DNA of 64,000 bases from assembly GCF_016907315.1 (NCBI RefSeq), contig NZ_JAFBBS010000001.1, positions 1,426,001-1,490,000 of the forward strand, in the 5' to 3' direction. Source of the DNA: Microbacterium esteraromaticum (lineage in GTDB: Bacteria; Actinomycetota; Actinomycetes; Actinomycetales; Microbacteriaceae). Shown here piece by piece: positions 16,202 through 32,785 of this stretch. The notes under the pieces are model-generated. The model was given only the letters and a program-made list of their open reading frames with translations, had not been told where the DNA came from and made no database searches. The position numbers and the translations under genes were made by a program. Position 1 is the stretch's first letter; each line of letters begins with the position of its first letter.

Positions 16202-17605
16202 ATGACCACCACCGCACCAGGCGCACCGAGTCTGCACCGCAGCCTCACGCAGCGTCACGTCGTCTTCATCGGACTGGCGTACATGTCGCCGTTCGCCGTG
16301 TTCGACACCTTCGGCATCGTCTCGGAGGCCACCAAGGGCCACGTGCCCATGTCGTACATCATCATCACGATCGCGGTGCTGTTCACCGCGTTCAGCTACG
16401 CGAAGATGGTGCGCGTCTACCCGTCTGCGGGCTCGGCGTACACGTACACCCGCCGCACGATCGGCGCCCCGGTCGGATTCATGGTCGGCTGGGTGGCGCT
16501 GCTCGACTATCTGTTCCTGCCGATGATCAACGCGCTGCTGGCCGGCATCTACCTGTCGGCGTCGTTCCCCGACGTGCCCGAGTGGGTGTGGATCGTCGGG
16601 CTCATCGTGATCATCACGGCGCTGAACATCGTCGGCGTGCGCATCAGCGCGGTCGCGAACATGATCATGGTCGTCTTCCAGGCGCTGCTCGCCGCCGTGT
16701 TCCTCGTGCTCACGATCGGCGCGATCACCAGCGACAACGCCCTCGCCTTCACTTTCGCGCCCTTCTACTCGATGAGCGCAGACCTCGCGAGCCTGGTCGG
16801 GGGCGCCGCCGTGCTCGCCCTCGCCTTCCTCGGCTTCGATGCGGTCACCACGCTGTCTGAAGAGACGGTCGACCCCCGCCGCACGGTGCCGCGCGCGATC
16901 ATGTGGATCGCCGCCCTCGGCGCCGCCTTCTTCGTCACGATCACCTACGTCATGCAGACCCTCGTGCCCGACATCGACGCGCTCTCGGCGATCACGCCCG
17001 ACATCGAGGGCGCCTCGCCGTACATCGCGCTGTTCATCGGCGGCATCGTGTTCCAGACGTTCTTCCTCGCCGGGGCGACGGTGTCGGTGCTCTCGTCCGG
17101 CCTCGCGTCGCAGCTCAGCGCCTCACGTCTGCTGTTCGCGATGGGCCGCGATGGCATCATCCCGCGAAAGGTCTTCGGCTACGTGCACCCGCGCCTGGGC
17201 ACGCCGGTGTTCAACATCGTCGTCGTCGGCGCGATCGCGCTGACCGCGCTGGGGCTCGACCTGAACGCGGCGACGTCGCTGATCAACTTCGGCGCCTTCA
17301 CCGCATTCGCGTTCGTCAACCTGTCGGTGATCGCGTTCTGGTGGCGCCACCGCGGTGACGAGAGCACACGCGGCTCGGTGCTCGCCTGGACCGTGGTGCC
17401 GGGCATCGGCTTCGTCATCAACCTCTGGCTGTGGCTGAGCCTCGACCAGATGGCCATGACGGTCGGCCTGATCTGGGCCGGAGTGGGCGCGCTGTACCTG
17501 CTGTGGCTGACCCGCGGCTTCCGCCGCCCGACACCCGAGGTCGCCTTCGACGAGGCAGAGGATCTTCCGACCGGCGTCGTGCGGACCCCGAAGGTCAACG
17601 CCTGA
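16202..17605 (+). CDS. APC-superfamily amino acid/polyamine permease
   Basis: A 467-aa transporter with 12 predicted helices. The first helix reads VVFIGLAYMSPFAVFDTFGI, where APC proteins carry their unwound substrate-binding stretch, and helix 6 has LALAFLGFDAVTTLSEET, the conserved GFD(A)xxxxxEE motif of the putrescine/amino acid importers (PuuP/YdgF-like branch). The gene follows the amidase after 35 nt with GAGAGG upstream of the ATG and closes the operon at a strong hairpin. Context suggests uptake of agmatine, putrescine or another amine used by the two enzymes before it. The substrate is not provable from sequence. Confidence 0.9.
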   Translation: MTTTAPGAPSLHRSLTQRHVVFIGLAYMSPFAVFDTFGIVSEATKGHVPMSYIIITIAVLFTAFSYAKMVRVYPSAGSAYTYTRRTIGAPVGFMVGWVALLDYLFLPMINALLAGIYLSASFPDVPEWVWIVGLIVIITALNIVGVRISAVANMIMVVFQALLAAVFLVLTIGAITSDNALAFTFAPFYSMSADLASLVGGAAVLALAFLGFDAVTTLSEETVDPRRTVPRAIMWIAALGAAFFVTITYVMQTLVPDIDALSAITPDIEGASPYIALFIGGIVFQTFFLAGATVSVLSSGLASQLSASRLLFAMGRDGIIPRKVFGYVHPRLGTPVFNIVVVGAIALTALGLDLNAATSLINFGAFTAFAFVNLSVIAFWWRHRGDESTRGSVLAWTVVPGIGFVINLWLWLSLDQMAMTVGLIWAGVGALYLLWLTRGFRRPTPEVAFDEAEDLPTGVVRTPKVNA

Positions 17606-17628
17606 CGCGGGAGCGCACCGAAGACTCA

Positions 17629-17664
17629 GAGACGCAGGTTCCCGGTCATCCGGACCTGCGTCTC
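17629..17664 (+). terminator. Terminator between the APC permease and TetR genes
   Basis: An 11-bp stem (GAGACGCAGGT/ACCTGCGTCTC) with a 14-nt GC-rich loop, followed on the + strand by GTCTTT. It lies between convergent genes and may serve both. Confidence 0.75.
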
Positions 17665-17696
17665 GTCTTTCCGCGGGAGCGCGCCGGCTACTCGAC

Positions 17697-18305
17697 CTAC
17701 CCGAGCGCGCCGTCCGGCAGCCCCAGCGTCCACGCGGCGACGTCGGCGACGAAGCTGGAGTAGCCGAAGCGCTCGGGGCCGGGCGGGTCGTTGACGTAGG
17801 TGGTCGTCGCGTCGACGGCCATCAGGATGCGCACGGCCGCGGCACCGGCATCCGCAGTCCGGAACTCTCCACGCGACAATCCTGACGCGACGATCTCGGT
17901 GATGCGCTCGAGGTACGCGGCCTCCTGCGCGGCGATGGCCGCGGCGAGCGCGGGGGTGAAGCGCGAGAGGTGACGGGCGTTCAGCCACAGACGCGAGAGC
18001 GGGACGGATGCCTCTGACGCGAAGAATGCGACGAACCGCGCCATCCTCTCGCTGGGGGTGCCCTCGCCGAGCAGCACCTCGGTGCGCTCGCTCGACGCGG
18101 CGCGCTCGAATGCGGCGATGACGAGGTCCTGCACGGCGGGGAAATAGTGCGAGATCAGGCCTGGTCGCACGCCGATGCGCTCGGCGACGGCGCGCACGGT
18201 GATGCGCTCGAGTCCGTCGTCGAGGGCGATCCCGGCAGCCGCGGCGAGGATCTCCTCACGGCGCTGGCCTGGCTGTTTCCGCGTGTACGAAGCGGGGCTT
18301 GACAT
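17697..18305 (-). CDS. TetR-family regulator of the NCS1 permease/amidohydrolase operon
   Basis: A 202-aa repressor. The HTH region REEILAAAAGIALDDGLERI-TVRAVAERIGVRPGLISHYF occupies about residues 14-54; the rest is a helical effector domain. Two starts are possible: ATG 18317 (no ribosome binding site) and ATG 18305 (GGGGA 5 nt upstream, giving MSSPASYTRKQ), and I prefer 18305. The gene is divergent from the NCS1 permease gene, and two operator-like 22-bp sites lie in the gap, beginning 14 bp from its start. Autoregulation and repression of the permease operon are therefore likely. The ligand may be a nucleobase, hydantoin-like or other cyclic amide compound. Confidence 0.88.
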   Translation of the reverse strand: MSSPASYTRKQPGQRREEILAAAAGIALDDGLERITVRAVAERIGVRPGLISHYFPAVQDLVIAAFERAASSERTEVLLGEGTPSERMARFVAFFASEASVPLSRLWLNARHLSRFTPALAAAIAAQEAAYLERITEIVASGLSRGEFRTADAGAAAVRILMAVDATTTYVNDPPGPERFGYSSFVADVAAWTLGLPDGALG

Positions 18306-18318
18306 CACCTTCCCCATG

Positions 18319-18364
18319 TTATTGGATAAGTGACCAACAGCACTATTGGCTACCCGATCAATAA
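18319..18364. promoter_or_regulatory. Two tandem TetR operators
   Basis: Two 22-bp imperfect palindromes 2 bp apart. Site 1 (18319-18340) has outer arms TTATTGG and CCAACAG. Site 2 (18343-18364) has outer arms CTATTG and GATCAATAA and matches the perfect operator at 13382-13403 in its first six bases and at GATCAATA. Centre spacing is 24 bp, a little over two helical turns, so two dimers could bind side by side. Confidence 0.7.
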
Positions 18365-18408
18365 GGATCGCCCAGGACGACGACGTCCCAGACCGCTGAG
18401 AGGCACCC

Positions 18409-19827
18409 ATGTCCCTGAACCCCGCGAGCGACGCTGCGGCAGACGCGGCTTCCGCCACCCACCCCGAGACGCGCGGCATCGAGCTCATCGGCGACGCCGA
18501 GCGCCACGGCCGACCCCGCGACCTGTTCTTCGTCTGGGCCGCACCCAACGTCAGCGTGCTCAACTTCACCGTCGGCGCGACGCTCATCGTGCTCGGTCTC
18601 GAGCTCTGGCAGGCACTGCTCGTGATCATCGCCGGAGCATTGCCGTGGATCTTCACCGGCGTCATCGCGATCTCGGGCCCCGCAGCCGGCACATCGGGCT
18701 CGGTGATCATGCGCGCGATGTACGGCGTCATCGGCAACCGCATCGTGGTCGCGTTCATGGGCTGGCTGGTATCGGCCGTCTACCTCGCGCTCAACTGGCT
18801 CGCCGCCGCCTTCCTCGGCGCCGACATGCTCGCCCGCCTAGGATGGGACGCCCCCATCGCCGCACCCATCGTGGTGACGATCGTCGTCGCCGCCGTCACC
18901 GTTCTCGTCGCGGTCTACGGCCACGGACTGATCCTGCGCACCTACACCTACGTCGCGGTGCTGCTGCTCGCGATCTTCCTCGTGCTCACCGGGTTCATCC
19001 TGCCGAACGTCGACTGGGCGTACCGGGCCGCAGAGCCGCTCCAGGGCGGCGCGCTGTGGTCTGCGGCATCCATCGGGTTCGCGATCCTGGCATCCTCTCC
19101 CCTGTCGTACATCAACAGCCCCGATATGGCGCGATACCTGCCCCGCTCGACGCCGCCGGGTCGCATCATCGCCGCGACCGCCCTCGGCGGCGCGGTGCCC
19201 GGCGTCTTCTTCACGACGATGGGCGCGCTGATGGCGACCGCCGTGAGCGCGGAAGATCTGCAGTTCGGCGTCGAGGGCGTCATGCTCGGCATGCTGCCCG
19301 CCGCCCTCGCACCCCTGCTCGTGTTCGGCGTGATCCTGAACACCGTCGCCCTGAACGGCATGACGACGTACACCTCGAGCATGGCGCTGCAGGCGATCGG
19401 CGTCCCGCTGCGGCGCATCCCCGCCGCGATCGTCGTCGGTGTGATCGGCACGGCGCTCACCATCTACCTGACGCTGTCGACCACGTTCCTCAGCGCGGTG
19501 AATCTGATCCTGCAGTTCCTCATCGTGGTCGCCGCGCCCGTGATGGCGATCTTCGTGGTCGACGTGGTGCTGCGCCGCAACCGCTACGACGGACTCGACC
19601 TGTTCGACGACCGGCCGGGTGGACGCTACTGGTACTCGGGCGGGTGGGGTGTTCCCGGGATCGTCGCCTTCGTGGTCGGCATCATCGCAAGCGCGCTCTG
19701 CCTGTCGACCGACGTGTGGACCGGCCCGATCGCCGAGGCACTCGGCTACATCGACCTGTCGGTCCCGGTCGGCGTTATCGTCGCCGGAGGCCTGTACGCA
19801 GTGATGAGCGGAAAGGTCGCACGATGA
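18409..19827 (+). CDS. NCS1-family permease (purine/cytosine type)
   Basis: A 472-aa nucleobase:cation symporter-1 family transporter with 12 hydrophobic segments. Helix 1 contains FFVWAAPNVSVLNFTVGAT (about 40-58), helix 3 has RAMYGVIGNR, the conserved RxxFGxxG-like element, and helix 6 has SYINSPDMARYLPRSTP, matching the SDYxRYxP motif of the cytosine/hydantoin branch. NCS1 members import cytosine, purines, allantoin, hydantoin or thiamine. Translation of the following amidohydrolase starts inside its stop (ATGA overlap), so transporter and enzyme very probably act on the same compound. The ribosome binding site is GAGAGG, 5 nt before the ATG. Confidence 0.92.
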   Translation: MSLNPASDAAADAASATHPETRGIELIGDAERHGRPRDLFFVWAAPNVSVLNFTVGATLIVLGLELWQALLVIIAGALPWIFTGVIAISGPAAGTSGSVIMRAMYGVIGNRIVVAFMGWLVSAVYLALNWLAAAFLGADMLARLGWDAPIAAPIVVTIVVAAVTVLVAVYGHGLILRTYTYVAVLLLAIFLVLTGFILPNVDWAYRAAEPLQGGALWSAASIGFAILASSPLSYINSPDMARYLPRSTPPGRIIAATALGGAVPGVFFTTMGALMATAVSAEDLQFGVEGVMLGMLPAALAPLLVFGVILNTVALNGMTTYTSSMALQAIGVPLRRIPAAIVVGVIGTALTIYLTLSTTFLSAVNLILQFLIVVAAPVMAIFVVDVVLRRNRYDGLDLFDDRPGGRYWYSGGWGVPGIVAFVVGIIASALCLSTDVWTGPIAEALGYIDLSVPVGVIVAGGLYAVMSGKVAR

Positions 19828-21428
19828 CGACGCAGCTGTACACCGGAGGACGCATCTTCACGGCCGACCGGCGGGCCTGGGCGACCGCGATGGTGCTGGC
19901 GGGCGACCGCATCCAGTACGTCGGCGACGACGCCACCGCGAGCCGCATCGCCGGGCTGGATGCCGAGCGGCATCCGCTCGACGGAGCGCTGGTGCTGCCA
20001 GGGTTCGTCGACGCGCACTCGCATGTGATCCACACCGGCGAGGCGGCGCAGCAGGTCGACCTGTGGAGCGCGGCCGATCTGACGCAGATCCAGGCGGCGA
20101 TCTCCGAGGCGGCGGCCGCCGATCCGGAAGCCGTGCGCATCCGCGCTCAGGGGTGGCAGCAGAGCGCGGTCGCTCACCCCACCAGGCAGATGCTCGACGA
20201 GATCGTGCCGGATCGCCCCGTGTACGTGCAGGCGTTCGACCTGCACTCGATGTGGCTGAACACCGCGGCGCTGGCCGAAGTGGGGATCGGCGACGACACC
20301 GCCGACCCGGTCGGCGGTCGCATCCACCGCGACGCGGACGGCCACGCCAGCGGCGTCATCGACGAGACGGCCATGCAGCAGTTCGCCTGGGCGGCACTCG
20401 ACAGCTTCGAGACCGAGGCCGACACCGACCGCGCGCTCGAGGTGGCGCTGCGCGGCTTCGCCGAGACCGGCGTCACCGCGGTGACCGACATGGCTCTCGA
20501 TGAGGCGCAGCTGGCGACCATGCGCCGGTCGTATGCGGCGGGCGCTCTGACGACCCGCATCTCGGCGCACTGGCTGCTGAACCCGACCGGCGATGCCGAG
20601 AAGGACCTCGCTCAGGTGCACCGCGCCGCCGAGCTGGCCGACGCGATGGGCGACGACTGGCTGCGCGTCATCGGGGTCAAGATCCTCTCCGACGGCACCG
20701 TCGACGGCTGCACGGCGGCGGTGCGCGCGCCGTACGCCGACGGATCGCTGCCCGAGCCCGTGTGGTCGCTCGACGCCCTGACGACGGTCGTGGTCGCGGC
20801 CGATGCCGCCGGACTGCAGGTCGCGATCCACGCGATCGGCGATGCGGCCGTGGCGAACGCGATCACGGCGATCGAGCGCGCCGTCGCCGAGAACGGCCCG
20901 GCCCAGCGCCGGCACCGCATCGAGCACCTCGAGGTCGTCGACCCCGACGACATCGAGCGCCTCGCAGCCCTCGGCATCACGGCGTCGATGCAGCCCGTGC
21001 ACTCCGACCCCGCTATTCAGGACAACTGGCGCGCGATGCTGGGAGACCAGCGCATCGACCGCGGATACCCCTGGCCCGAGATGACCGAGCAGGGCGCGAC
21101 CCTGGTGTTCGGCACCGACTCCCCCACCTCGCACTTCGATCCCCTGCCGAACATGTTCATCGCCGCGACGCGGCGATCGGCGCTGAACCCGGCCCTCGAG
21201 CCGAACGTCGAGCGGTACAAGCTGCCGCTGGCGGATGCTGTGATCCACGCCACGCGCGACGCCGCCTGGGCGTGCCGCGCCGAGAACCGCTACGGCCGAC
21301 TCGCGGCCGGGCTGCTCGCCGACTTCATCGTGCTGGATCGGAATGTGTTCGAGCGCCCTGCGGAGGAGCTGCTGGAGGCGCGGGTCGTGCGCACGGTCGT
21401 CGGCGGAGCCGTGGTCTACGAGGCCTGA
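19824..21428 (+). CDS. Amidohydrolase, YtcJ-like (metal-dependent)
   Basis: A 534-aa member of the YtcJ/NfdA-like amidohydrolase family. The metal-binding HxH is in PGFVDAHSHVIHTG (about residues 60-73). Further ligands are in LQVAIHAIGDAAVANAI (about 332-348) and RHRIEHLEVV (about 362-371), and the terminal Asp is in FGTDSPTSHFDPL (about 430-442). The C-terminal GRLAAGLLADFIVLDRN is the usual closing beta-sandwich segment. The family hydrolyses exocyclic amide or formamide bonds. The 4-nt overlap with the NCS1 permease suggests degradation of an imported nitrogen heterocycle or N-acyl compound. A paralogous enzyme is encoded at 43454-45067. Confidence 0.92.
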   Translation: MTTQLYTGGRIFTADRRAWATAMVLAGDRIQYVGDDATASRIAGLDAERHPLDGALVLPGFVDAHSHVIHTGEAAQQVDLWSAADLTQIQAAISEAAAADPEAVRIRAQGWQQSAVAHPTRQMLDEIVPDRPVYVQAFDLHSMWLNTAALAEVGIGDDTADPVGGRIHRDADGHASGVIDETAMQQFAWAALDSFETEADTDRALEVALRGFAETGVTAVTDMALDEAQLATMRRSYAAGALTTRISAHWLLNPTGDAEKDLAQVHRAAELADAMGDDWLRVIGVKILSDGTVDGCTAAVRAPYADGSLPEPVWSLDALTTVVVAADAAGLQVAIHAIGDAAVANAITAIERAVAENGPAQRRHRIEHLEVVDPDDIERLAALGITASMQPVHSDPAIQDNWRAMLGDQRIDRGYPWPEMTEQGATLVFGTDSPTSHFDPLPNMFIAATRRSALNPALEPNVERYKLPLADAVIHATRDAAWACRAENRYGRLAAGLLADFIVLDRNVFERPAEELLEARVVRTVVGGAVVYEA

Positions 21429-21506: not shown

Positions 21507-23219
21507 GTGAGTGCCCTAGGGGGGGCGGTGCTCACGGGAATGGGGATCGCTGTGCGAGGACTCGCGCATACTCTTGTGCTGACCGGCGCGGCCAGGGCCG
21601 ATGACGTGTCGGCCGCCATGGCCGCCGTCGGCGACGGCGACGAGCTCGGCCCCTGGCTGGTGCGCAAGGGAGCCACCACCGACGCCCAGCTCGCCGAGGC
21701 GATCGCGCTCGCCACGAACCACCGTTACATCGATCTGTCGACGTACGAGTTCGATCCCGATGTGATCGCCCTCGTGCCGGGCAACCTCTGCCGCCGCTAC
21801 CGGCTGATCCCGTTGCGCGTGATGCGCGACGAGCTGACCGTCGCGATGATCGACCCGACCGACATCATCGCGCTCGACGACATCGCGAGCCTGACTGACA
21901 TGCGCGTCACGCCGATCGTCGCGGCGGCGGATGCCCTGGCGCAGACCTTCGAGCGCTTCCTGCGCTCCGACGGCGAGCTGACCGACCTGTCTGAGCAGAT
22001 AGGGGAATCGTCGAGCTCATCCGACATCGTCTTCACCGAGCACCTCGACGATCAGGACGCCGATGCGCCCGTCGTGCGTTTCGTGAACCTGCTGATCACA
22101 CAGGCGATCAACGACCGTGCGAGCGACATCCACATCGAACCGGGCGAGCACCGGCTGACCGTGCGGTTCCGCATCGACGGTGTGCTGCACGAGATGCAGA
22201 GCGCCGACCGCGGCATTCAGGACGGCGTGATCTCGCGACTGAAGATCATGTCGTCGATCGACATCGCCGAGCGTCGTGTGCCGCAGGACGGCCGCATCTC
22301 GGTGCTGCACGAAGGACGCTCCGTCGACCTTCGCGTGGCGACTCTGCCGACGGTGTGGGGCGAGAAGATCGTCATGCGCATCCTCGACAACACCGGTCAG
22401 TCGATGACGATGGAAGACCTGCGCTTCTCGCCGGTCAACCGCGACCGGTTCAGCGACGCGATCACCCGGCCCCACGGCATGGTGCTGGTGACCGGTCCGA
22501 CCGGCTCGGGCAAGTCGACCACTCTGTACACGGCGCTGCGCACGGTCGCGAACCCCCGGATCAACGTGATCACGGTCGAAGACCCGGTCGAGTACCGCAT
22601 CGCGGGCATCAACCAGGTGCAGGTGAATCCCCGTGCCGGCCTCACCTTCGCGACCGCGCTGCGCTCGATCCTGCGCTCCGACCCCGATGTCGTGCTCGTC
22701 GGAGAGATCCGCGACCGCGAGACGGCCGCGATCTCGATCGAGGCGGCACTCACCGGTCACCTCGTGCTCTCGACCCTGCACACGAACGACGCCCCGAGCG
22801 CGCTGACGCGTCTGACCGAGATCGGCATCGAGCCCTTCCTCGTGGCGACCGCGTTGAGCGCCGTCGTCGCGCAGCGCCTTGCCCGGCGACTGTGCATGCG
22901 GTGCCGCAAGCCGTACGAGGGCGATGCCAAGATGCTGCGGCAGATCGGCATGCCTCCCGCTCTGATCGACTCGGCCGACGTACATGTCGCCGTCGGGTGC
23001 GCGAGCTGCTCGAACACCGGCTACCGCGGCCGGGTCGCCCTGCACGAGGTGATGACCGTCACCGACGAGATCGAGCAGCGGCTGGTCGCCCGCGCGACCG
23101 GTGCCGACCTGCGTGAGCTCGCGCTGAGGCAGGGCATGCTCGAGCTGCGCGACGACGGCTGGACGAAGGTCGCCGACGGCATCACGACGATCGAGGAAGT
23201 GCTGCGCGTCTCGGTGTGA
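21507..23219 (+). CDS. pilB: Type IV pilus extension ATPase PilB
   Basis: A 570-aa GspE/PilB-type hexameric ATPase that powers pilus polymerisation at the cytosolic face of PilC. The N-terminal GspEII/MshEN-like domain spans about 1-150, then a linker. The ATPase core shows Walker A GPTGSGKSTT (about 330), Asp box VITVEDPVEY, Walker B DPDVVLVGEIRD and His box TGHLVLSTLHTND. The zinc-binding tetracysteine CMRC...CASC follows near residues 470-500, a hallmark of extension but not retraction ATPases. The start is uncertain: GTG 21507, ATG 21540 and GTG 21552 are all in frame. The gene stands apart from the other pil genes on the opposite strand, ending 3 nt from the pilC end. Confidence 0.93.
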   Translation: MSALGGAVLTGMGIAVRGLAHTLVLTGAARADDVSAAMAAVGDGDELGPWLVRKGATTDAQLAEAIALATNHRYIDLSTYEFDPDVIALVPGNLCRRYRLIPLRVMRDELTVAMIDPTDIIALDDIASLTDMRVTPIVAAADALAQTFERFLRSDGELTDLSEQIGESSSSSDIVFTEHLDDQDADAPVVRFVNLLITQAINDRASDIHIEPGEHRLTVRFRIDGVLHEMQSADRGIQDGVISRLKIMSSIDIAERRVPQDGRISVLHEGRSVDLRVATLPTVWGEKIVMRILDNTGQSMTMEDLRFSPVNRDRFSDAITRPHGMVLVTGPTGSGKSTTLYTALRTVANPRINVITVEDPVEYRIAGINQVQVNPRAGLTFATALRSILRSDPDVVLVGEIRDRETAAISIEAALTGHLVLSTLHTNDAPSALTRLTEIGIEPFLVATALSAVVAQRLARRLCMRCRKPYEGDAKMLRQIGMPPALIDSADVHVAVGCASCSNTGYRGRVALHEVMTVTDEIEQRLVARATGADLRELALRQGMLELRDDGWTKVADGITTIEEVLRVSV

Positions 23220-23222
23220 CGG

Positions 23223-24461
23223 TCAGCCCTGTTTCGCGATGTCGCCGTAGAGGGTGAAGATCGGCATGTACAGCGCGATCACCATTCCGCCGATCACCAC
23301 GCCGAGACCCACGATGAGCACCGGCTCGATGAGCGACGACAGCTGCTCGGTCGCGGTCTCGACCTCATCCTCATAGAAGTCGGCGATGCTGCCGAGCATC
23401 TGGCCGAGCGTTCCCGACTCCTCACCGACGGCGACCATCTGCGACACCATCGGCGGGAACACGGCGGCGTTCGACAGGGGCACGGCGAACGAGCGACCCG
23501 CGCGGATCGACTCTTGGATGTCGCGCACGGTCTGCTCGATCTTCCAGTTGCTCGACGCCTGGCCCACGATCGACAGCGCCTGGATGATCGGCACACCGGC
23601 GTCGAGCATCATCGATAGGTTCCGCGAGAACCGCGCGACGGCCATCTTGGTCACCAGCGCGCCGAAGATCGGGAGCTTCAGCTTGATCGGGTCGACGATC
23701 TTTCGATAGCCGTCCGTGTAGCGGTTGCGCATCCACCACACCCACCCGATCAGCACTGCCAGCGCGATCACAGGCAGGATCCAGATCATGTTGTGCGAGA
23801 TCGTCACGAGGATGAGCGTCGGCAGCGGCAGCTCGCCGCCCAGTCCCTCGAACATGTCCTCAAACACCGGCACGATGAACGTCACCATGACAAGCACGCC
23901 GAGCATCGCGATCACGAGCACCACAGCCGGGTACGTCGTCGCGGATCGGATCTTGCCGTGCAGCTCTGCCTGCTTCTGGTAGTTCTCGGCGATCGACTCG
24001 AGCGCGGCCCCGAGGAAGCCGCCCGACTCCCCGACGCGCACGATCGACACCATCAGCGGGGGGAAGATGAGCGGATGCCGCTGCAGCGACGCTGACAGCG
24101 ACGAGCCCGTCTCCACATCATTGGCCACCATCGAGACCACGGCACTGAGCTTCTTGTCGGAGGTCTGGTCCGCCAGCACGTTGAGCGTGCGCAGCAGAGG
24201 CAGACCGGCGTTGATCAGCGCTGACATCTGCCGAGCGAAGATGGCGAGCGTCTTGGCCGGCACGCCCTTCTTCAGACTGGGGAGTGTGATCTCGCGTCGC
24301 AGGCCGGTCTTGGCCAGAGCCGAGACCTCGATGGGCATGAGGCCCTGAGCTCTGAGCTTTGCAGTCACGACGGCCTCGCTGGTGGCATCCATCGTGCCCT
24401 TGAGGGTGTGCGTCGTGTTGGGGTCGATGGCCTGATACTGCCACTCCTGCATCGTGGCCAT
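23223..24461 (-). CDS. pilC: Type IV pilus platform protein PilC
   Basis: A 412-aa inner-membrane platform protein of the T2SF/GspF family, on which PilB and PilT act. Two copies of the T2SSF domain are visible. The first runs over about 50-195, with the FARQMSALINAGLPLLRTLN start. The second covers about 255-400, with ARFSRNLSMMLDAGVPIIQA and SQMVAVGEESGTLGQMLG. Hydrophobic spans lie at about 180-205, 225-247 and 378-402. The first residues (MQEWQYQAIDPN) are the usual opening. The ATG at 24461 overlaps the pilT stop by one base (TGATG), so it is translationally coupled and is the last gene of the operon. Confidence 0.95.
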   Translation of the reverse strand: MATMQEWQYQAIDPNTTHTLKGTMDATSEAVVTAKLRAQGLMPIEVSALAKTGLRREITLPSLKKGVPAKTLAIFARQMSALINAGLPLLRTLNVLADQTSDKKLSAVVSMVANDVETGSSLSASLQRHPLIFPPLMVSIVRVGESGGFLGAALESIAENYQKQAELHGKIRSATTYPAVVLVIAMLGVLVMVTFIVPVFEDMFEGLGGELPLPTLILVTISHNMIWILPVIALAVLIGWVWWMRNRYTDGYRKIVDPIKLKLPIFGALVTKMAVARFSRNLSMMLDAGVPIIQALSIVGQASSNWKIEQTVRDIQESIRAGRSFAVPLSNAAVFPPMVSQMVAVGEESGTLGQMLGSIADFYEDEVETATEQLSSLIEPVLIVGLGVVIGGMVIALYMPIFTLYGDIAKQG

Positions 24462-25597
24462 CACGAACCCCACTCTTCGAGCTGCTGGTCGACGGCATAG
24501 TGCGACCATGAGTCGGCGTCGAAGTCGTTCGCACGCACGAAGACGTTGTCGAGCGATGCGGGGTCCGATGCGAAGGTGCGAGCCACCGCCGCCGCGACCG
24601 TCCCCTCGCCGACCAGGCGGCGCAGGTCCTGATCGAGGGTGTGCATGCCGTCGTTCGCGCCCGCCTGCATGGCGGTGTAGAGCTGAGCCACCTGCCCTTC
24701 GCGGATGAGGTTGGCCACGGCGGGATTGTTGACGAGCACCTCGGTCGCAATCGTCCGTCCGCCGGACTGCGCGCGCGGCAGCAGGGTCTGGCTGATGACT
24801 CCCTGCAAGGTGTCGCCGAGCTGGGTCCGGATCTGATGCTGCTGATCGGCGGGGAACACGTCGACGATGCGGTTCACCGACTTCGCAGCGCCCTGGGTGT
24901 GCAGCGTGGAGAGCACGAGGTGGCCCGTCTCCGCGGCCGACAACGCGGTCATGATCGACTCGGGGTCTCGAAGCTCGCCGACGAGAATGACGTCGGGATC
25001 CTGACGCAGCACGCGCCGCAGCGCCTCGGCGAACGAGTTGGTGTCGCTGCCCACCTCGCGTTGGTGGATCAGAGCCCGCTTGCTGGTGTGGTGGAACTCG
25101 ATCGGGTCCTCGATCGTGACGATGTGCACCGGGCGGGTGCTGTTGATGATGTCGACCATGGCGGTCAGCGTGGTCGACTTGCCAGATCCGGTCGGGCCCG
25201 TCAGCAGCACAAGGCCGCGCGGGCGCAGGGCGAGGTCTCTCGCGATCGCGGGCGCTCCGAGCTGCTCGAGCGTGAACACCTGTTCGGGAATGAAGCGCAG
25301 CGCGATGGCGATGGAGCCCAGCTGCTGGAACACGTTGACGCGCAGGCGCCCGACGCCATCGACGGCGAAGGCCAGGTCGACCTCGTGTCGCTCGTCGAAC
25401 TCGGCACGCTGACCGCTGTTCATCAGCGTGAAGGCCGCGGATCGGACCCAGCTGTCGCTGAGCACATCCGGGTGCCCAGGGATGGCGACGAGGTCGCCGT
25501 CCACGCGCATCAGCGGGATCGCCTCGGCAGTGATGTGCACGTCGGATGCACCGGATTCGGCACCGACGCGAAGCAGATCGTCGAGAGTCTCAGTCAT
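24461..25597 (-). CDS. pilT: Type IV pilus retraction ATPase PilT
   Basis: A 378-aa ATPase that depolymerises pili and drives retraction (twitching, DNA uptake). An N-terminal PAS-like region begins TLDDLLRVGAESGASDVHI. Walker A GPTGSGKSTT (about 135), Asp box VTIEDPIEF, Walker B DPDVILVGELRD and His box TGHLVLSTLHTQGA are all intact. There is no tetracysteine zinc site, which separates it from PilB. The PilT-specific AIRNLIRE-like element appears as NPAVANLIREGQVAQLYTAM. I prefer the ATG at 25597 because GGAG lies 9 nt upstream; ATG 25612 has none. Its presence implies that the pili are dynamic and not only secretion pseudopili. Confidence 0.94.
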   Translation of the reverse strand: MTETLDDLLRVGAESGASDVHITAEAIPLMRVDGDLVAIPGHPDVLSDSWVRSAAFTLMNSGQRAEFDERHEVDLAFAVDGVGRLRVNVFQQLGSIAIALRFIPEQVFTLEQLGAPAIARDLALRPRGLVLLTGPTGSGKSTTLTAMVDIINSTRPVHIVTIEDPIEFHHTSKRALIHQREVGSDTNSFAEALRRVLRQDPDVILVGELRDPESIMTALSAAETGHLVLSTLHTQGAAKSVNRIVDVFPADQQHQIRTQLGDTLQGVISQTLLPRAQSGGRTIATEVLVNNPAVANLIREGQVAQLYTAMQAGANDGMHTLDQDLRRLVGEGTVAAAVARTFASDPASLDNVFVRANDFDADSWSHYAVDQQLEEWGS

Positions 25598-25598
25598 G

Positions 25599-26318
25599 TC
25601 ATTCGTCTCCATCGTCGTGCAGGAAGGCGATCACCGTGATCTGCATGTCGAAGGTCTCAGCTGTGCGGGTGGTGGTCACAGAGTCGATCGCGATGCCCCT
25701 CGGCCCGGCCCTGAGACCGTCGAGGAACGCGAATGCGCTGCTGATGTCGGTGGCGCTCGCGCGGATGGTCAGCTCGACCTGCTGTCGCGACGGTTCAGTT
25801 GCGGCAGGCGTCGCGGCGTCGGTTCCCTCGGCAGCCGCGCCCTCAGGGGTCGCGGCGGCGGCTGCGTCGTCGGCGACCTCGGCCGCATCGTCGATCGGGG
25901 TTCCGGTCTCGGTCTGCTCGGCCGGTTCCGCTGGTGCGCCGGGAGCGTCCGCGCCGCCGGTGGTGCCCGTCCGGGCGGCGTACGGCGCGAGATCGCCCCT
26001 GCTGACGCCGGTGATCTCGACGCCGGCCGATGTGCCCGCACGCGAGATGCGGTCGAACACCTGGTTCAGCAGCTCTCCGTCGGGGATCTGCGCGCGCAGC
26101 TGTTCAACGCCGCTCTCGATCTCGTCGAGGCGCTCGTTCTGCGCGGTGAGGTCGGCGATCTGCGCTTCATACCCCGCATTCGTGGTCTCGACCTGCTGCC
26201 GCTGGCCCGCTGCGGTGAAGACGCCGCCCACGAGGGGCACGACGCCGACCAGAACGGCCGCAGCGAGCACGGCGGCCGCGACGAGCGCTCCGATCAGAGT
26301 GATCAGCTGCTTCGTCAT
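25599..26318 (-). CDS. pilO: PilO-like pilus alignment protein with Ala/Pro/Glu-rich insert
   Basis: A 239-aa bitopic membrane protein. One N-terminal span (about 5-35) is followed by a coiled-coil-like segment (QQVETTNAGYEAQIADLTAQ onwards, about 43-80) and a C-terminal ferredoxin-like domain (about 178-239) of the PilO/GspM kind. Between them, about residues 115-172 form a low-complexity Ala/Pro/Glu/Thr-rich stretch not typical of the proteobacterial protein (about 205 aa). PilO partners with PilN in the inner-membrane alignment complex linked to PilM. Start codons GTG 26321 and ATG 26318 are both possible; the ATG overlaps the pilN stop. Identification rests on topology and position between pilN and pilT. 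Confidence 0.75.
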   Translation of the reverse strand: MTKQLITLIGALVAAAVLAAAVLVGVVPLVGGVFTAAGQRQQVETTNAGYEAQIADLTAQNERLDEIESGVEQLRAQIPDGELLNQVFDRISRAGTSAGVEITGVSRGDLAPYAARTGTTGGADAPGAPAEPAEQTETGTPIDDAAEVADDAAAAATPEGAAAEGTDAATPAATEPSRQQVELTIRASATDISSAFAFLDGLRAGPRGIAIDSVTTTRTAETFDMQITVIAFLHDDGDE

Positions 26319-26983
26319 CACTTCGCCTCTTCTTCCGGCTCGGTGGCGAACCGCCCTGTGTACACGTTCTGATCGAATGCGACGTCCATCGTGTATGTGA
26401 AGCGGCCTTCGTCAGCAGTGCTCTCGATGAGGGCATTCGCGTCGCTGCGCACGATCGCCGGCACGTTTCGCAGCCGCGCGGCGATCGTGGCGATCTCCAG
26501 CGTGTTCGGGCTGTCGAGAGTGATGGTCCCGCTGAGTCCGATCTTGTTCGCCGCCTCTTCCTCATTGATCGCCAGCGCCGAGGGCGGTCCCGGCGTCAGC
26601 TCGAAGCCGACGAGTCGCACATCGCCGGGAAGCTGCGATTCGATCTTGCGCTGGATGTCCTTCCAGACCAGGTCAGACCCCATGGCCTCGGCGAGGTATC
26701 CGCGCAGTTCGCGGTCCGTAGCGAGAGCGCCGCTCACCTCGGACAGCGAGCCGATCTGCGTGATCAGGATGTTCGTGCGAGTCTGCTCGGACGCCAGCTG
26801 CTGCTGGGCGAATTGATTCCACACCCAGGCACCGGCGACGAGCAGCACCGAGACGATGATCGCCGCGATGCCGACCCACACCCACCGGCCGGCAAGGGCC
26901 TCTCGCTCCCGCCGTGCGACTTCAGACGGCGGCAGCAGGTTCACACGGGGGGCCTGGCCCACCATGGCGGCTGTGCGTGCCAT
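26318..26983 (-). CDS. pilN: PilN-like pilus assembly protein
   Basis: A 221-aa bitopic protein. The short cytosolic N-terminus contains VNLLPPSEVARRE, matching the conserved (I)NLLP motif through which PilN docks on PilM. A single span follows (about 33-58), then a periplasm-equivalent domain with a short helix (about 60-110) and a ferredoxin-like C-terminal fold. It overlaps pilM and pilO by one base each, so stoichiometric synthesis is likely. The acidic tail is EPEEEAK. Confidence 0.85.
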   Translation of the reverse strand: MARTAAMVGQAPRVNLLPPSEVARREREALAGRWVWVGIAAIIVSVLLVAGAWVWNQFAQQQLASEQTRTNILITQIGSLSEVSGALATDRELRGYLAEAMGSDLVWKDIQRKIESQLPGDVRLVGFELTPGPPSALAINEEEAANKIGLSGTITLDSPNTLEIATIAARLRNVPAIVRSDANALIESTADEGRFTYTMDVAFDQNVYTGRFATEPEEEAK

Positions 26984-28008
26984 CAGCTGTCCTTTCCGAG
27001 CGCGAGACCGAGGGTGCTCACGAGATTCAGCGCGAGCTCGCCCGTCGGCGCGCTCTCACGCATCGCGATCACCTCGGGCAGGCCGATCACCCTCACGGGT
27101 GCCCCCGCGTGCTCATTCAGGCCTGCCTGCACGCCCTCGACCATCGCTCCGGCGCCCGTGAGCAGCACCTGCTGGATCTGGGCGGCGCCGGGGCGGTTCA
27201 GGTAGAACGACAGCGTGCTTCGCAGACGCGCGATGAGATCGGCTGAGGGGCGCCCGCCGACGTCGCCGCGCAGAGCGCCGCGCGGCAGCACGCCGGCGCT
27301 GCCGACAACGCTTCCGGCGAGCTCGGCGGCCGGTGCCGTCATGCTCTCGTCTGACGCGATCAGGCTGCGCCGGCGGACGGCCGCGGTCTCGAGGTCAGCG
27401 GGAAGGATGCGGACGAACTCGGGAATGCCATCCCGCATGATCACGATCTGCGTCGTGTGGTCTCCGACATGGATGACGGCGACCGTGCCCTGCGGCGCGA
27501 CGACGCGTCCGGCCCGAGCCAGTCCGAACGCCGTGAGGTCGACCGCCTGCACCCGCAGCTTCGTCCGCGTGAAGGCCGCGATGAGCTGCTCCACGGTGTC
27601 GGCGACGGCGGCGACGAGCAGCCCGTGCAGCTGCTCGCCCTGCTGCGACGTGGGGTAGTAGTCGAGCACCGCCTGGCTGACCGGAACAGGAAGCAGGTCC
27701 TGCACCTGGAAGGGCAGCGCCTTGCGCAGCAGCTCGGGCGGCATGGCTGCCGTGCTGTACTCACGGACGAGCACGCGGCGACTGGCGATGCCGAGGGTGA
27801 CGGAACGGCCCTTGATGCGTGCGGTCGTCCACAGCTGCCGCAGCGCGACGGCGACCGCCCCCTCGTCGATGATCTCGGAGTCTTTCGCGGCGTCGGGCGG
27901 CAACGCCACTTCGCCGAAGGCGACCACGCGCGGGGAGCGCCCGGCGCTGACCTCCACCGCGCGCACGCTCTCTTCGGTGATCTCGACACCGACGTGAGTG
28001 GCTGCCAT
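26983..28008 (-). CDS. pilM: Actin-like pilus assembly ATPase PilM
   Basis: A 341-aa cytosolic FtsA/actin-like protein that binds the PilN N-terminus and connects the membrane complex to PilB/PilT. Landmarks are the opening THVGVEITEESVRAVEV (phosphate 1 strand), the PilM core AMPPELLRKALPFQVQDLLP, VAVIHVGDHTTQIVIM (phosphate 2 region) and LLTGAGAMVEGV (adenosine loop). The ATG at 28008 is preferred over 28014 because AGGAG, overlapping the pilD stop, is 8 nt upstream of it and only 2 nt from the other. Confidence 0.9.
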   Translation of the reverse strand: MAATHVGVEITEESVRAVEVSAGRSPRVVAFGEVALPPDAAKDSEIIDEGAVAVALRQLWTTARIKGRSVTLGIASRRVLVREYSTAAMPPELLRKALPFQVQDLLPVPVSQAVLDYYPTSQQGEQLHGLLVAAVADTVEQLIAAFTRTKLRVQAVDLTAFGLARAGRVVAPQGTVAVIHVGDHTTQIVIMRDGIPEFVRILPADLETAAVRRRSLIASDESMTAPAAELAGSVVGSAGVLPRGALRGDVGGRPSADLIARLRSTLSFYLNRPGAAQIQQVLLTGAGAMVEGVQAGLNEHAGAPVRVIGLPEVIAMRESAPTGELALNLVSTLGLALGKDS

Positions 28009-28019
28009 TGTCATGACTC

Positions 28020-28931
28020 CTAGCTGTACAGGCCCAGGTACCAGCGGCCTACCGGCTCACCGATAAGGATTCCGACCCACGCTCCCGCGAGAATCCACGG
28101 GCCGAACGGGATCGCTGTCTTCCGTTTCGCTCGATTCAACAGCATCAGGCAGATTCCGAACACTCCACCGAGCAGGAAGGCGGCGAAAGCACCGACGGCG
28201 AGCGCTCCCCATCCGAACCAGCCCAGCACCGTTCCGACCAGGCCGGCGAGCTTCACGTCGCCGCCGCCCATGCCGCGCGGACTGATCACACGCACGACGA
28301 AATAGAAGACGTACAGTGCGGCGCCGCCGATGAGCGCGCGCAGGAACGGCCACCAGTCGATCTCGCCGCTCGCCGACGCCCGGCCGGGCGATGCGCTCAG
28401 TTCACCGGCAGCGGCAGGGAACATGCCCGACAGCACGGTCGTGATCAGCAGCAGGATGACGATCGCCGCCCAGCCCGGCAGCACGATCGCATTCGGCAGC
28501 CGCTTCGTATCGAGGTCGATGAGTGTCAGAGCGATGCTCAGGCTCGCGAAGACAAGGAGCATCACGAGAACGCCCCAGAATTCCGCCGTTCCGAACCACA
28601 GAGCGCCGTCGACGGGGCGGGCGTCGAGCGGCCGTCCGGCCGCCACACCCCACGCGACACCCGCAAACAGCACGGCCGTGGCGGCTTCAACGAGCGGATA
28701 GCGCGCCGATATCGGAGTTGAACAGCTCGCGCATCGCCTCCGCAGCGCCAACCACGACGCCACCGGTATGTTCTGATACCAGCGGATGCTTGCGTTGCAT
28801 CCGGGGCATCTGCTCTCTCGCAGCAGGGAGATTCCGGCCGGTACGCGATACGCGACCACGTTGAGGAAAGATCCGATTGCGAGCCCGAACAGCCCTGCGA
28901 ACACTGCGACGAAGATGACGGCCGCCGCCAT
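28020..28931 (-). CDS. pilD: Prepilin peptidase (A24 family)
   Basis: A 303-aa polytopic aspartyl protease that removes the prepilin leader and N-methylates the new terminus. The N-terminal methylase domain has the zinc-type CPGC...CASC pairs (about residues 43-72). The two catalytic aspartates are in LIDLDTKRLPN (about 138-148) and GGGDVKLAGL (about 222-231), the GD motif of the family. Eight or so hydrophobic segments are visible. It should process the three prepilins encoded upstream in the same operon. It starts inside the pilX-like stop (TGATG). Confidence 0.95.
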   Translation of the reverse strand: MAAAVIFVAVFAGLFGLAIGSFLNVVAYRVPAGISLLRESRCPGCNASIRWYQNIPVASWLALRRRCASCSTPISARYPLVEAATAVLFAGVAWGVAAGRPLDARPVDGALWFGTAEFWGVLVMLLVFASLSIALTLIDLDTKRLPNAIVLPGWAAIVILLLITTVLSGMFPAAAGELSASPGRASASGEIDWWPFLRALIGGAALYVFYFVVRVISPRGMGGGDVKLAGLVGTVLGWFGWGALAVGAFAAFLLGGVFGICLMLLNRAKRKTAIPFGPWILAGAWVGILIGEPVGRWYLGLYS

Positions 28932-30568
28932 CAGCGCTCCACTTGCCGGGTGCGGTCGCTCAGCGAGTACTCCATCTGCGTGACGATGACGGCGTCATCG
29001 CTCTCGCCGCGCACCTTGCAGCCCAGCTTCTTGAACGCGTCCGGCCAGCTCATGGTCGCGCAGGTGTACGACGCCCCGTTGCCGAACATCACCGACCCGG
29101 TGTCGTTCGAGTACAGCTGTCCGGTGAAGCTCGCTCTGACGTTGCCGGTGAGTCCGCACGGTGTGTAGATCATGATCTTCGCGCCCGACACATTGGCTCC
29201 GCTAGCGATGTCGATCGTGTCCTTCTGACTGCCGTTGCCGCAGGTCGGCGACGTCTCGCCGTCGGTGAGCGCCCTGTTGGCGTCGGCATGCAGGAAGACC
29301 AGCTGCTTGCCGCCCGTCAGGCCGGTGTTGAGCGTCAGGTTCATCCTCTTGCCCGCCGGCGCGAGAAAGACGACGTCCTTGTTCAGGGCGACCGACGACG
29401 GGCCGGTCAGAGTGATGTCGGTGCTCACCGACGAGCAACCGCGGTAGTCCAAGGCGATCGGAGTGGTGGGCCCGGTGGAGAGCAGCGAGATGATCTCGGC
29501 CGAGGTCTTCGTGCAGGCCGAGACCGGGGCGACGTTCCAGCTGGACGTCTCGTCGAGGTCGATCCACGAGGTGACCGATTTGATGAAGGCCAGCGTGGGG
29601 TCGAAGACCGGTGAGGGAGCAGCAGTCGTCTGCGAGCCAGAGACGACCCACTTGCTCCCCACGTTGATCGATCCCGTGGCCGAGACGTTGCCGTACACCC
29701 GACCGTCCGTGGCTCCCGTGTTGGTCAGGTCGATGCTGCCACCGGCCAGAAGGTTGCCCGACCCGACCGGGGTGGGCGGCGCCTTGCCGAGCACAGAGCC
29801 GTTCGACGTGAACGTGATGTTGCCCGCCGCTCGCACCTCTCCCGTCACCTTGACCAGCTGAGAAGCCCCGTTGACGTTCTCGTGAGCCCAGATGCTGCCG
29901 TTCACCGTGCAGTCTCGGCTGAGGTTGACGCTGCCGTTCGTCACGTAGAGATCACCGTTGATGGTTCCTTCGTTCGCGCAGGTGTAATCGCCCGAGCGCA
30001 CGACGAGGTCGCCGGTGTAGTTCGAGACCGTGGAGGTCACACCTCCGGCGAAGTAGGCGAGCACACCGCCCGCGTACATTTTCTCGGCGTGCTCCCACCG
30101 GTAGATCGAATCGATCTCCGCGCGCGCACCCTGAGCATCGGTGCCGATCGAATTGATGACGAAATAGCCGAGCTTCTCGCTCACCGGCGGGCAGGTCTGT
30201 GACAGCCCGCTGTCTTCGTGACTCGACGGAGCCACGTCACTCGGCGTCCAGTAGATCGAGTACTGGAACTGCACCGGCGATGCGTTCGTGCTGTTCCACG
30301 AAGTGGTGTCGCATGTAAAGCTCTTGCGGTCGGCAGACACTCCAGCGGTCAGCAGGGCATAGGCGGTGTCGCGGCCGGATTCGGCCGAGATGAAGGCCTG
30401 CGTGCTGCTGCGGTTGGCGGTATTGGCTTGCACAGTGAAGACGACACTCGCCGCGATGGTCGACGCGACGAGGAATCCGAGCAGCATCACGACGACGACG
30501 ACGGCGACCAGCACGGCACCGGCGTCATTCGGAGAATGGGGGGCGCGTCGTGAAGACGATCGGATCAT
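28931..30568 (-). CDS. Large PilX-like pilus assembly protein with beta-helical body
   Basis: A 545-aa protein encoded among the minor pilins. The N-terminus (AGAVLVAVVVVVMLLGFLVA, about 16-36) resembles PilX_N proteins: a pilin-like helix without Glu5. The body (about 145-345) is Gly/Thr/Ser/Asn-rich with short repeating strands such as TINGDLYVTNGSVNLS and GRVYGNVSATGSINVG, suggesting a right-handed beta-solenoid similar to bactofilin or adhesin folds. Eight or more Cys in the exported part could form disulfides. PilX- and PilY1-type proteins initiate pili and act in adhesion, so a tip location is likely but unproven. Start ATG 30568 overlaps the previous stop by 4 nt; a GTG at 30577 is also in frame. 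Confidence 0.75.
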   Translation of the reverse strand: MIRSSSRRAPHSPNDAGAVLVAVVVVVMLLGFLVASTIAASVVFTVQANTANRSSTQAFISAESGRDTAYALLTAGVSADRKSFTCDTTSWNSTNASPVQFQYSIYWTPSDVAPSSHEDSGLSQTCPPVSEKLGYFVINSIGTDAQGARAEIDSIYRWEHAEKMYAGGVLAYFAGGVTSTVSNYTGDLVVRSGDYTCANEGTINGDLYVTNGSVNLSRDCTVNGSIWAHENVNGASQLVKVTGEVRAAGNITFTSNGSVLGKAPPTPVGSGNLLAGGSIDLTNTGATDGRVYGNVSATGSINVGSKWVVSGSQTTAAPSPVFDPTLAFIKSVTSWIDLDETSSWNVAPVSACTKTSAEIISLLSTGPTTPIALDYRGCSSVSTDITLTGPSSVALNKDVVFLAPAGKRMNLTLNTGLTGGKQLVFLHADANRALTDGETSPTCGNGSQKDTIDIASGANVSGAKIMIYTPCGLTGNVRASFTGQLYSNDTGSVMFGNGASYTCATMSWPDAFKKLGCKVRGESDDAVIVTQMEYSLSDRTRQVER

Positions 30569-31152
30569 GGCCAGCACGGCGACACCCCTGACCCCGCGCC
30601 GGTGTTTCGGGCTGCCACCTCGCCTCGGAACACGACCGGCGAGGCCTCAGTGCGGATCTGGAACGAGTAGGTAATCACGTTGCCGTCCTTGGTGAAGTAG
30701 GTGGGGGACGGAGAGACGTCCTGCCGGATGGTCGGGCCTTTCCATGGGGGTGTGGTCCAGGAGGGGGTCCCGGATCCGGCGGTCATGAAGGCCGCCGAAC
30801 CCTTGGCGGTGTCGGCCGGATCAGCGGGGGCGAACTTGAAAGCCTGGCAAGTTTTCGTGCCAGCCCCGATTGTCCAGATGGTCAAGGTATCCGCTCCCGA
30901 GACCCGCGTACCGTCGGAATTTCGCACCGCGTGTTCGACTGCGGACGCCACGACCTGACCCTCGTTCGTCGCCACAGTCGTGGAGCTCACCTGCCGCTGG
31001 GTGTTCCAGGAGTTGACGAGGATCATCGTGACGACTCCGCCGAGCAGCGCCACGATGAGGACGACGACGATCAGCTCGATGAGTGAGATGCCGTCGTCAC
31101 TTGCGCCTGCGGGTCCTCTCGGTCGCCGCAAGGAGTCAATCGGGGGGGTCAT
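30565..31152 (-). CDS. Minor prepilin, PilW-like
   Basis: A 195-aa protein with a class III prepilin signal. The 21-residue leader ending SDDG is followed by ISLIELIVVVLIVALLGG, with Glu at position 5 after the predicted cleavage. The C-terminal globular part has one Cys near the middle and CWP at the end, probably a disulfide. Likely role: minor pilin in the initiation or tip complex. ATG 31152 overlaps the pilV-like stop (ATGA). Confidence 0.85.
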   Translation of the reverse strand: MTPPIDSLRRPRGPAGASDDGISLIELIVVVLIVALLGGVVTMILVNSWNTQRQVSSTTVATNEGQVVASAVEHAVRNSDGTRVSGADTLTIWTIGAGTKTCQAFKFAPADPADTAKGSAAFMTAGSGTPSWTTPPWKGPTIRQDVSPSPTYFTKDGNVITYSFQIRTEASPVVFRGEVAARNTGAGSGVSPCWP

Positions 31153-31544
31153 TGCTTCACGTAGATGATCGCGTCGACGCGCACCAGGATCGAGGAATCG
31201 TGGACGGCGTCGAGCGACACCTGAACTGCGGTCTTCGGTGTGCACGTCGGGTTCCTCCCCCCGGCGGTCGGCGCCTCGATGCTGAACTCCCGGTTGGTGC
31301 CTTCGAAGTACGGATCGGCGATAGCGCGGATGGCGTTGACCTTGGCGCAGGTCTGCGCTGTACGCGCTTCTTCTATGAGGCTGTTGAGCTCACGGGTGGC
31401 CGTCGCAGTGACCGACTGCGTGGAGGACTGACTGATGCCTCGCGCAAGAAACGGAAGCAAGGCGACCGCGATGATAGCGAGGAGCATCATCGCGATGACG
31501 ACCTCGACCAGACCGAAGCCCTCATCCGAACGCGTGCGAAACAT
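31149..31544 (-). CDS. Minor prepilin, PilV-like
   Basis: A 131-aa prepilin. The 9-residue leader MFRTRSDEG precedes FGLVEVVIAMMLLAIIAVAL, with Glu at +5. Two Cys (TCAKV and PTCTP) in the globular domain could pair. The PilV/minor pilin assignment is by size, leader and order. No good ribosome binding site precedes ATG 31544, so initiation may depend on coupling or be weak. It lies beyond the pilA hairpin. Confidence 0.8.
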   Translation of the reverse strand: MFRTRSDEGFGLVEVVIAMMLLAIIAVALLPFLARGISQSSTQSVTATATRELNSLIEEARTAQTCAKVNAIRAIADPYFEGTNREFSIEAPTAGGRNPTCTPKTAVQVSLDAVHDSSILVRVDAIIYVKQ

Positions 31545-31568
31545 CTGAGTTCTGCCAAAACCATCTGT

Positions 31569-31596
31569 AGCGGGGATGACAGCAGTCATCCCCGCT
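31569..31596 (-). terminator. Attenuator/terminator between pilA and the minor pilin genes
   Basis: A perfect 12-bp stem, AGCGGGGATGAC/GTCATCCCCGCT, with a 4-nt loop, 15 nt after the pilA stop. On the minus strand it is followed by ACAGATGGTTTT. Because the next gene begins only 67 nt after the pilA stop with no clear promoter, partial read-through would set a high pilA-to-minor-pilin ratio. Confidence 0.8.
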
Positions 31597-31611
31597 GCAG
31601 GCGGCATCAGA

Positions 31612-32031
31612 TTAAGGGCATCCTGGACCTTCGAGCTTGGCGTCCAAGTCCGAGGGCCAACGAGTGTTACCCGCCGCAACATCGGCACTCACACACACGT
31701 CGTTCACCTGGGTGTCAGTCAGGGCGAAAGTTCCTCCGACCCCAACCGTGATGTCGTCATTGCTGACGCTGGCGAGAGCGGTCGTGGGTGTGGTTGCAGT
31801 GTCGTTGTCCCCCAGGGCGGCGGCGACCGCTGCGGCACCGTTGGCGGCGGCGCTGTCGATCGCAGCCTGCTGCGAGGACCTTTGAATGTTGCCGAACACC
31901 GGAATGGCGATCGCGACCAGGATGCCGAGGATCACGACGACGATGATGAGCTCGATGAGAGAGAAGCCGGCCTCGCCGTTCTCCTCCCGCTCGGCCTTCT
32001 TGGCCTCGATGAGGCGGCGGATAGTGAGCAT
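31612..32031 (-). CDS. pilA: Major type IV prepilin PilA
   Basis: A 139-aa type IVa-like pilin. The 22-residue charged leader MLTIRRLIEAKKAEREENGEAG is cut before FSLIELIIVVVILGILVAI, with Phe at +1 and Glu at +5; this is the classical N-terminal helix that packs the pilus core. The mature protein is about 117 aa, with an Ala-rich helix continuation (QQAAIDSAAANGAAAVAAAL) and a C-terminal pair of Cys (DVCVSADV and PGCP) delimiting a D-region loop. The ATG at 32031 has GGAGG 11 nt upstream; an in-frame ATG 17 codons earlier has no leader logic. First gene of the operon and probably the most abundant product. Confidence 0.93.
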   Translation of the reverse strand: MLTIRRLIEAKKAEREENGEAGFSLIELIIVVVILGILVAIAIPVFGNIQRSSQQAAIDSAAANGAAAVAAALGDNDTATTPTTALASVSNDDITVGVGGTFALTDTQVNDVCVSADVAAGNTRWPSDLDAKLEGPGCP

Positions 32032-32335: not shown

Positions 32336-32785
32336 ATGAAGATCCGCATCGCCGCCCTGCTGGCGCTGCCCCTGGTGCTGTGCTCATGCAGCGTCGTCGA
32401 CGCCGTAACAGCGCCCGTGGGCCCAGCCCAGATAGGCACGACGATCGAGCAGCAGGAGACGACGCAGCGACCCGCTGGAGCGCTCGACTGGTCGGCCGCG
32501 CGAGCGAGCATCGGCAGCACGGCAACGGTCTGCGGGCCGGTCGTCAGCACGTTCACAGCGACGAAGAGCGAAGGGCAGCCGACGTTCCTCAACCTCGGAG
32601 TCGACCACCCCGACCCCGCCGGCCTCACCGTCGTCATCTTCGGCGACCACCGCAGCGCCTTCCCGTTCGACCCCGCGCTCGAGTACGACGCCGCCGAGAT
32701 CTGCGTCACCGGCGAGATCCGCCCGCACGAGCAGTTCGTTCAGATCGAAGCGCGGACCCCCGAGCAGATCACCGTGATCGGCTGA
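32336..32785 (+). CDS. Probable lipoprotein with OB-fold-like domain
   Basis: A 149-aa exported protein. The signal peptide MKIRIAALLALPLVLCSCSV ends in a lipobox-like LCSC, with Cys18 (or Cys16) as the lipidation site. After a short Thr/Gln linker, about residues 52-148 resemble the bacterial OB-fold seen in many small envelope proteins (pattern TATVCGPV...FLNLG...TVVIFGD...ICVTGEI...QI). It lies divergent from pilA, so a pilus or surface function is possible but unsupported. It ends 3 nt from the convergent DUF1992 gene. Confidence 0.75.
   Translation: MKIRIAALLALPLVLCSCSVVDAVTAPVGPAQIGTTIEQQETTQRPAGALDWSAARASIGSTATVCGPVVSTFTATKSEGQPTFLNLGVDHPDPAGLTVVIFGDHRSAFPFDPALEYDAAEICVTGEIRPHEQFVQIEARTPEQITVIG

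Follow-up and report, generated by a model that had tools for sequence, protein, structure and literature searches.

Do the eleven clustered pil genes of the monoderm actinobacterium Microbacterium esteraromaticum specify a genuine type IVa pilus (T4aP), and if so, what might such a filament be used for? The genes lie in the 64,000-nucleotide stretch of DNA that was analysed here, hereafter the window. An initial annotation had described them as a complete and compact T4aP locus with intact ATPase and peptidase motifs, and this description holds: all eleven frames are open, family matches identify the parts, and the motifs are preserved, including Walker A in PilB and PilT and GGGD in PilD. 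The features are as follows, pilN being named by position and short motifs because its product matched no PilN family in Pfam and NCBIfam searches.

21540..23219, plus strand: pilB, extension ATPase with an N-terminal MshEN domain (T2SSE, E 3.5e-135; MshEN, E 9.9e-18)
23223..24464, minus strand: pilC, single inner-membrane platform protein (T2SSF in two stretches, E 2.5e-63)
24461..25612, minus strand: pilT, retraction ATPase (TIGR01420, 452.5 bits against a cut-off of 319.1; Walker A; AVANLIRE)
25599..26321, minus strand: pilO
26318..26983, minus strand: pilN (position, transmembrane-like stretch, RVNLLP close to the start)
26983..28014, minus strand: pilM (PF11104, E 6.7e-23; TIGR01175, 115.6 bits, below the cut-off of 133)
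28020..28931, minus strand: pilD, prepilin peptidase with CxxC pairs and GGGD (A24_N_bact, E 1.9e-31; Peptidase_A24, E 2.2e-11)
28931..30577, minus strand: pilX-like gene for a predicted tip pilin (no Glu5; nine invariant Cys)
30565..31152, minus strand: pilW-like minor prepilin, DG/ISLIE (from its sequence; N_methyl, E 0.003, below cut-off)
31149..31544, minus strand: pilV-like minor prepilin, EG/FGLVE (from its sequence; N_methyl, E 1.7e-5, above cut-off)
31612..32031, minus strand: pilA, major pilin with a long leader, EAG/FSLIE (TIGR02532, 27.2 bits against a cut-off of 16.3)
32336..32785, plus strand: predicted lipoprotein (LCSC by eye), divergent from pilA; flanking gene, not part of the pilus machine

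The pilB frame has three possible starts (GTG 21507, ATG 21540, and GTG 21549), and its product, which carries a Walker A motif and two CxxC pairs, has TIGR02538 as its top NCBIfam model, at 623.4 bits and below the cut-off of 675.65. The pilV-like product matches TIGR02523 at E 1.5e-4, under the model cut-off. PilA has 497 homologues at E<=1e-3, a class III leader with Glu5 was found in all 87 PilA rows, and the G.GD motif of PilD is kept in 84 of 85 rows. Glu5 had been reported as intact throughout, which is correct for PilA and the PilV- and PilW-like sequences but not for the PilX-like subunit. An MshEN domain occupies the N terminus of PilB (window positions 21540-22000). Members of this family bind cyclic di-GMP in other proteins, and this candidate domain might possibly control extension.

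The locus thus contains a PilM, PilN, and PilO assembly complex, an extension ATPase with one platform protein and a prepilin peptidase, a retraction ATPase, and a major pilin with the expected leader. It is not of the Tad/Flp kind, which has TadB/TadC platform paralogues and a Flp pilin, since there is a single platform gene with two T2SSF stretches; no Flp model is among the NCBIfam matches of the 139-residue PilA. The absence of PilQ noted initially was borne out, as the secretin family PF00263 has no match in the genome, while the same search was positive in 6 of 14 controls. Because most parts are common to T4aP and type II secretion systems, and GspE and GspF models score near the PilB and PilC models, the cluster could be imagined to form a pseudopilus exporting proteins rather than a true pilus. 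This we judge very improbable, because PilT scores well above its cut-off, PilM matches its own family, and there is neither a secretin match nor an outer membrane to cross. Scans for regulatory signals in the locus returned 3 terminators (3.3 expected) and 2 promoters (0.9 expected). A palindrome, CCCCTAAAGGGG at 32184 upstream of pilA and CCCTAGGGG near the pilB start, was considered as a shared operator. This reading was dropped because the pattern is absent upstream in other loci, that is, from the listed pilA and pilB upstream stretches of all rows from L066 on and from those of pilB in all 60 earlier loci.

How does this locus compare with known filaments? The accessible literature on the T4aP of Streptococcus sanguinis, another monoderm, describes the same PilM-N-O complex, single platform, extension ATPase, PilT, and PilD, as well as a major pilin with three minor pilins, without outer-membrane parts; the parts of a 2019 review available to us likewise state that PilQ and PilP are missing from monoderm T4aP. 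S. sanguinis also has modular minor pilins bearing grafted adhesive domains, as here, but the host is now an actinobacterium and the extra domain is a predicted beta-solenoid placed inside the pilin sheet. The Tad/Flp (Tfpc) pili of Micrococcus luteus and Bifidobacterium breve are also actinobacterial type IV filaments; their Flp pilins are described, in the portions available, as very small and their platform as a pair of paralogues, in contrast to the one platform, PilM-N-O, and PilT found here. Elsewhere in the genome, two TadA-type ATPases are encoded on contig C1 (940610-941377 and 621082-621894; L003 and L004), one passing the TIGR03819 cut-off of 373.15 with 396.4 bits and the other below it with 270.4, so the strain has Tad-like systems beside its T4aP.

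The PilX-like protein is a notable component. Its structural model consists of 1) a helix at residues 19-78, 2) pilin strands up to residue 169, 3) a beta-solenoid at about 180-530, and 4) a last strand at 531-547. The first Foldseek match of this model, over nearly the whole chain, is ComZ from Thermus thermophilus (PDB 6QVI; E 1.4e-5), with a low TM-score and 12% identity in the structural alignment; a profile of 56 PilX sequences found no solved chain at E<=1. ComZ, a proposed tip pilin and DNA receptor, similarly lacks the classical pilin motif, and in ComZ, as in the secondary structure of the PilX model, the solenoid is inserted before the last pilin strand. PilX differs from ComZ in its location in a monoderm T4aP locus, its nine Cys, which are invariant in 56/56 relatives, and a solenoid charge that is negative in every one of the 56. 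The model also shows the solenoid fold of tapirin C-terminal domains from Caldicellulosiruptor (6N2C and 6N2B), which along with the adhesin domain 4WA0 are matched at E 4.5e-3 or weaker; tapirins are not known to be pilins. The lack of Glu5 is expected of a tip cap. The pilus tip is likely formed by this large, disulphide-braced pilin with its predicted beta-solenoid. For the solenoid itself, binding to surfaces (sugar polymers or other cells) is the most likely role, that of a DNA receptor being less likely.

In T4aP, PilD trims prepilins, minor pilins start the fibre, PilB adds PilA via PilC and PilM-N-O, and PilT retracts the filament. Transferred to this locus, each step by homology, the four prepilins would be substrates of PilD. 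After trimming, PilV, PilW, and PilX would assemble into a starter complex capped by PilX, which has no Glu5, and PilA subunits would be inserted beneath it by PilB, working via PilC and PilM-N-O. The filament would be pushed out across the cell wall without a secretin, presenting solenoid PilX as its adhesive or receptor end, and PilT, judging by its sequence, would pull it back. We regard it as probable that the locus is the complete gene set of such a monoderm T4aP, with predicted cycles of extension and retraction and with the solenoid likely at the tip.

A pilus of this composition might instead serve DNA uptake, with PilX in the role of ComZ, so that DNA bound at the tip would be delivered to a ComEC channel when PilT retracts the filament. 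The structural match to ComZ, with its shared topology, favors this idea, as does the presence of ComEC in the genome, but ComEC is equally present in 20/20 picked genomes lacking T4aP, and a co-occurrence test of T4aP against ComEC gave no signal. Apart from pilus parts, the eleven genes include no competence gene, and the available literature assigns transformation in the actinobacterium M. luteus to a Tfpc (Tad) pilus, for which the two TadA-type ATPases provide a counterpart here. The negative charge of the solenoid also speaks against DNA uptake, though it does not decide DNA binding. We therefore consider DNA uptake rather unlikely.

A PilT match above the curated cut-off is found in 125/249 Microbacteriaceae genomes and in 246/396 genomes drawn across the phylum, but in only 68/247 genomes of the genus Microbacterium itself. 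Within the phylum sample, PilT at E below 1e-100 occurs in just 1/44 rows that share the class but not the order of the window (G609) and in 2/7 that share its order but not its family (G308 and G554), so the phylum-wide count comes mostly from other classes. Such pili had been called little described in this lineage. For experiments this stands, since according to the available text of the 2019 review, work on actinobacterial Tfp has dealt with Tfpc, and no experiment on actinobacterial or Microbacterium T4aP is evident in the titles and abstract openings of the matches listed, a set largely outside the subscription literature. For genomes it does not, given the PilT counts above and a 2019 survey that, in its accessible part, notes T4aP in Actinobacteria; this phylum is also included in a survey from 2011, available in part, that took in 53 Gram-positive genomes.

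Checking gene order across the family, as had been proposed, bore out the reading as a T4aP locus. In 55 loci from other genera (L006-L060), a nonrandom set chosen for strong PilT matches and long contigs, pilB-pilT-pilC-pilA are consecutive on one strand in 55/55, followed after pilA by V, W, X, D, M, N, and O as far as these were called. Calls are incomplete in places (N or O lacking in some, no X in L050, nothing past X in L053), pilD is called last in L027, and some order swaps stem from overlapping long open reading frames. Within Microbacterium, 65 of the 68 T4aP genomes were read and their orders counted by hand. The order of the window, A-V-W-X-D-M-N-O-T-C with pilB inverted, is present in 51/65 loci, window included, so that the opposite orientation of pilB, correctly seen at the outset, is no strain detail but part of an order typical of the genus. 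Two of the 51 (G843, L107; G649, L108) have a gene matching the DUF222/HNH protein of the window between pilC and the inverted pilB. The family order is kept in eight of the 65, among them G825, which shows only T-C-A on a short contig; three (L103, L197, and L206) have a split order in which B-T-C faces A..O; G652 (L203) has pilB upstream of and divergent from pilA, a fourth arrangement (1/65); and in two, pilB falls outside the stretch read. Four genomes, G698, G717, G791, and G831 (L104, L105, L183, and L187), have tandem copies of the locus about 10 kb apart. The pil calls in L156 look spurious.

Counted by hand and with inversions only, two events lead from the family order to that of the window, one turning T-C and the other A..O. 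In a FastTree phylogeny of PilB, PilC, PilT, and PilM with 121 rows, the 56 rearranged rows form one clade with a support value of 1.0, which also appears in a smaller tree, and none of the seven Microbacterium rows with the family order falls inside it. This tree omits the tandem loci, L020, L064, and L192, as well as L066 and L068, which are duplicate records; L069/L176 and L070/L179 have contigs of equal length, and each pair is probably one record that entered the count twice. With split rows among them, the window-type rows do not make up a clade of their own. The split order was considered as an intermediate toward that of the window, L103 being sister to all 20 window-type rows in the first tree. 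We do not claim this, because in the larger tree the window-type rows L182 and L188 branch outside the split order (support 0.999), whose own place has a support of 0.466; the split may as well be a later inversion.

The flanks suggest a history of exchange and loss. G729 has the pilus at the same site as the window, with flanks 84-90% and PilB 89% identical. In G601, the neighbors are close to those of the window (M13 peptidase 91%, permease 94%, DUF1992-like 85%, MatE 93%, and acyl-CoA dehydrogenase 94%), but at the site of the window locus the permease directly adjoins the DUF1992-like gene, and the pilus proteins PilB, PilC, PilT, PilM, and PilD are encoded on another contig and are 47-66% identical to those of the window. 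G673 has the same neighbors around an empty site in which the lipoprotein gene is reduced to its 3' end of about 130 bases, which fits a deletion; no pil match was found in the two stretches of this genome that were examined. Transfer or replacement of the locus, and its loss, are thereby indicated, and in the genus it has the appearance of an accessory trait, subject to rearrangement, duplication, exchange among species, and loss. A plasmid search with PilD returned only matches under 60% identity. The lipoprotein at 32336-32785 has no Pfam or NCBIfam match. Beside pilB, positions 16202-21428 encode an amino-acid permease, a TetR-like frame (by eye), a cytosine/purine permease, and an amidohydrolase, and a blastn comparison of the region at 17.6-21.5 kb with L154, the stretch from G729, gave no match longer than 120 bases.

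Could the locus be a decaying or silent remnant from which pili are no longer made? Patchiness would agree with this, 178/247 genomes of the genus being without a PilT match at E<=1e-60 and one relative having a gene stump alone at the site. Eleven open frames with preserved motifs, nine Cys kept in 56/56 PilX relatives, and tandem copies in four genomes argue the other way, and we give decay very little credence.

Taken together, these findings point to a pilus whose motor is ordinary and which is notable in three respects: 1) a predicted tip pilin resembling ComZ and tapirins within a Gram-positive T4aP, 2) a rearranged order of genes that is typical of Microbacterium, and 3) an accessory, exchanged history. 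A 2026 paper, in its available sections, reports the ssRNA phage Later, isolated on Microbacterium sp. CM01 and called the first leviviricete of a Gram-positive host, annotates a type IV pilus operon in CM01, and in its Discussion gives the mechanism of entry as unknown. Later might be linked to the type of locus found in the window. It is a tentative and, in our estimate, doubtful proposal that the solenoid-tipped retractable pilus is the entry receptor of ssRNA phages in Gram-positive bacteria, whose pressure would drive patchy loss, replacement, and fast pilin change in Microbacterium. Because only 68/247 genomes of the genus carry PilT above the cut-off, presence or absence of the pilus can be tested against phage sensitivity. 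If the PilX model is right, the idea of a tip receptor, known from ComZ, and that of an adhesin, known from tapirins, which have been separate, would meet in one Gram-positive machine. A full T4aP set in half of the sampled Microbacteriaceae would offer another model for crossing a thick wall without a secretin, and an actinobacterial pilus type that has hardly been studied would become testable, possibly also as a docking site for a recently found RNA phage.
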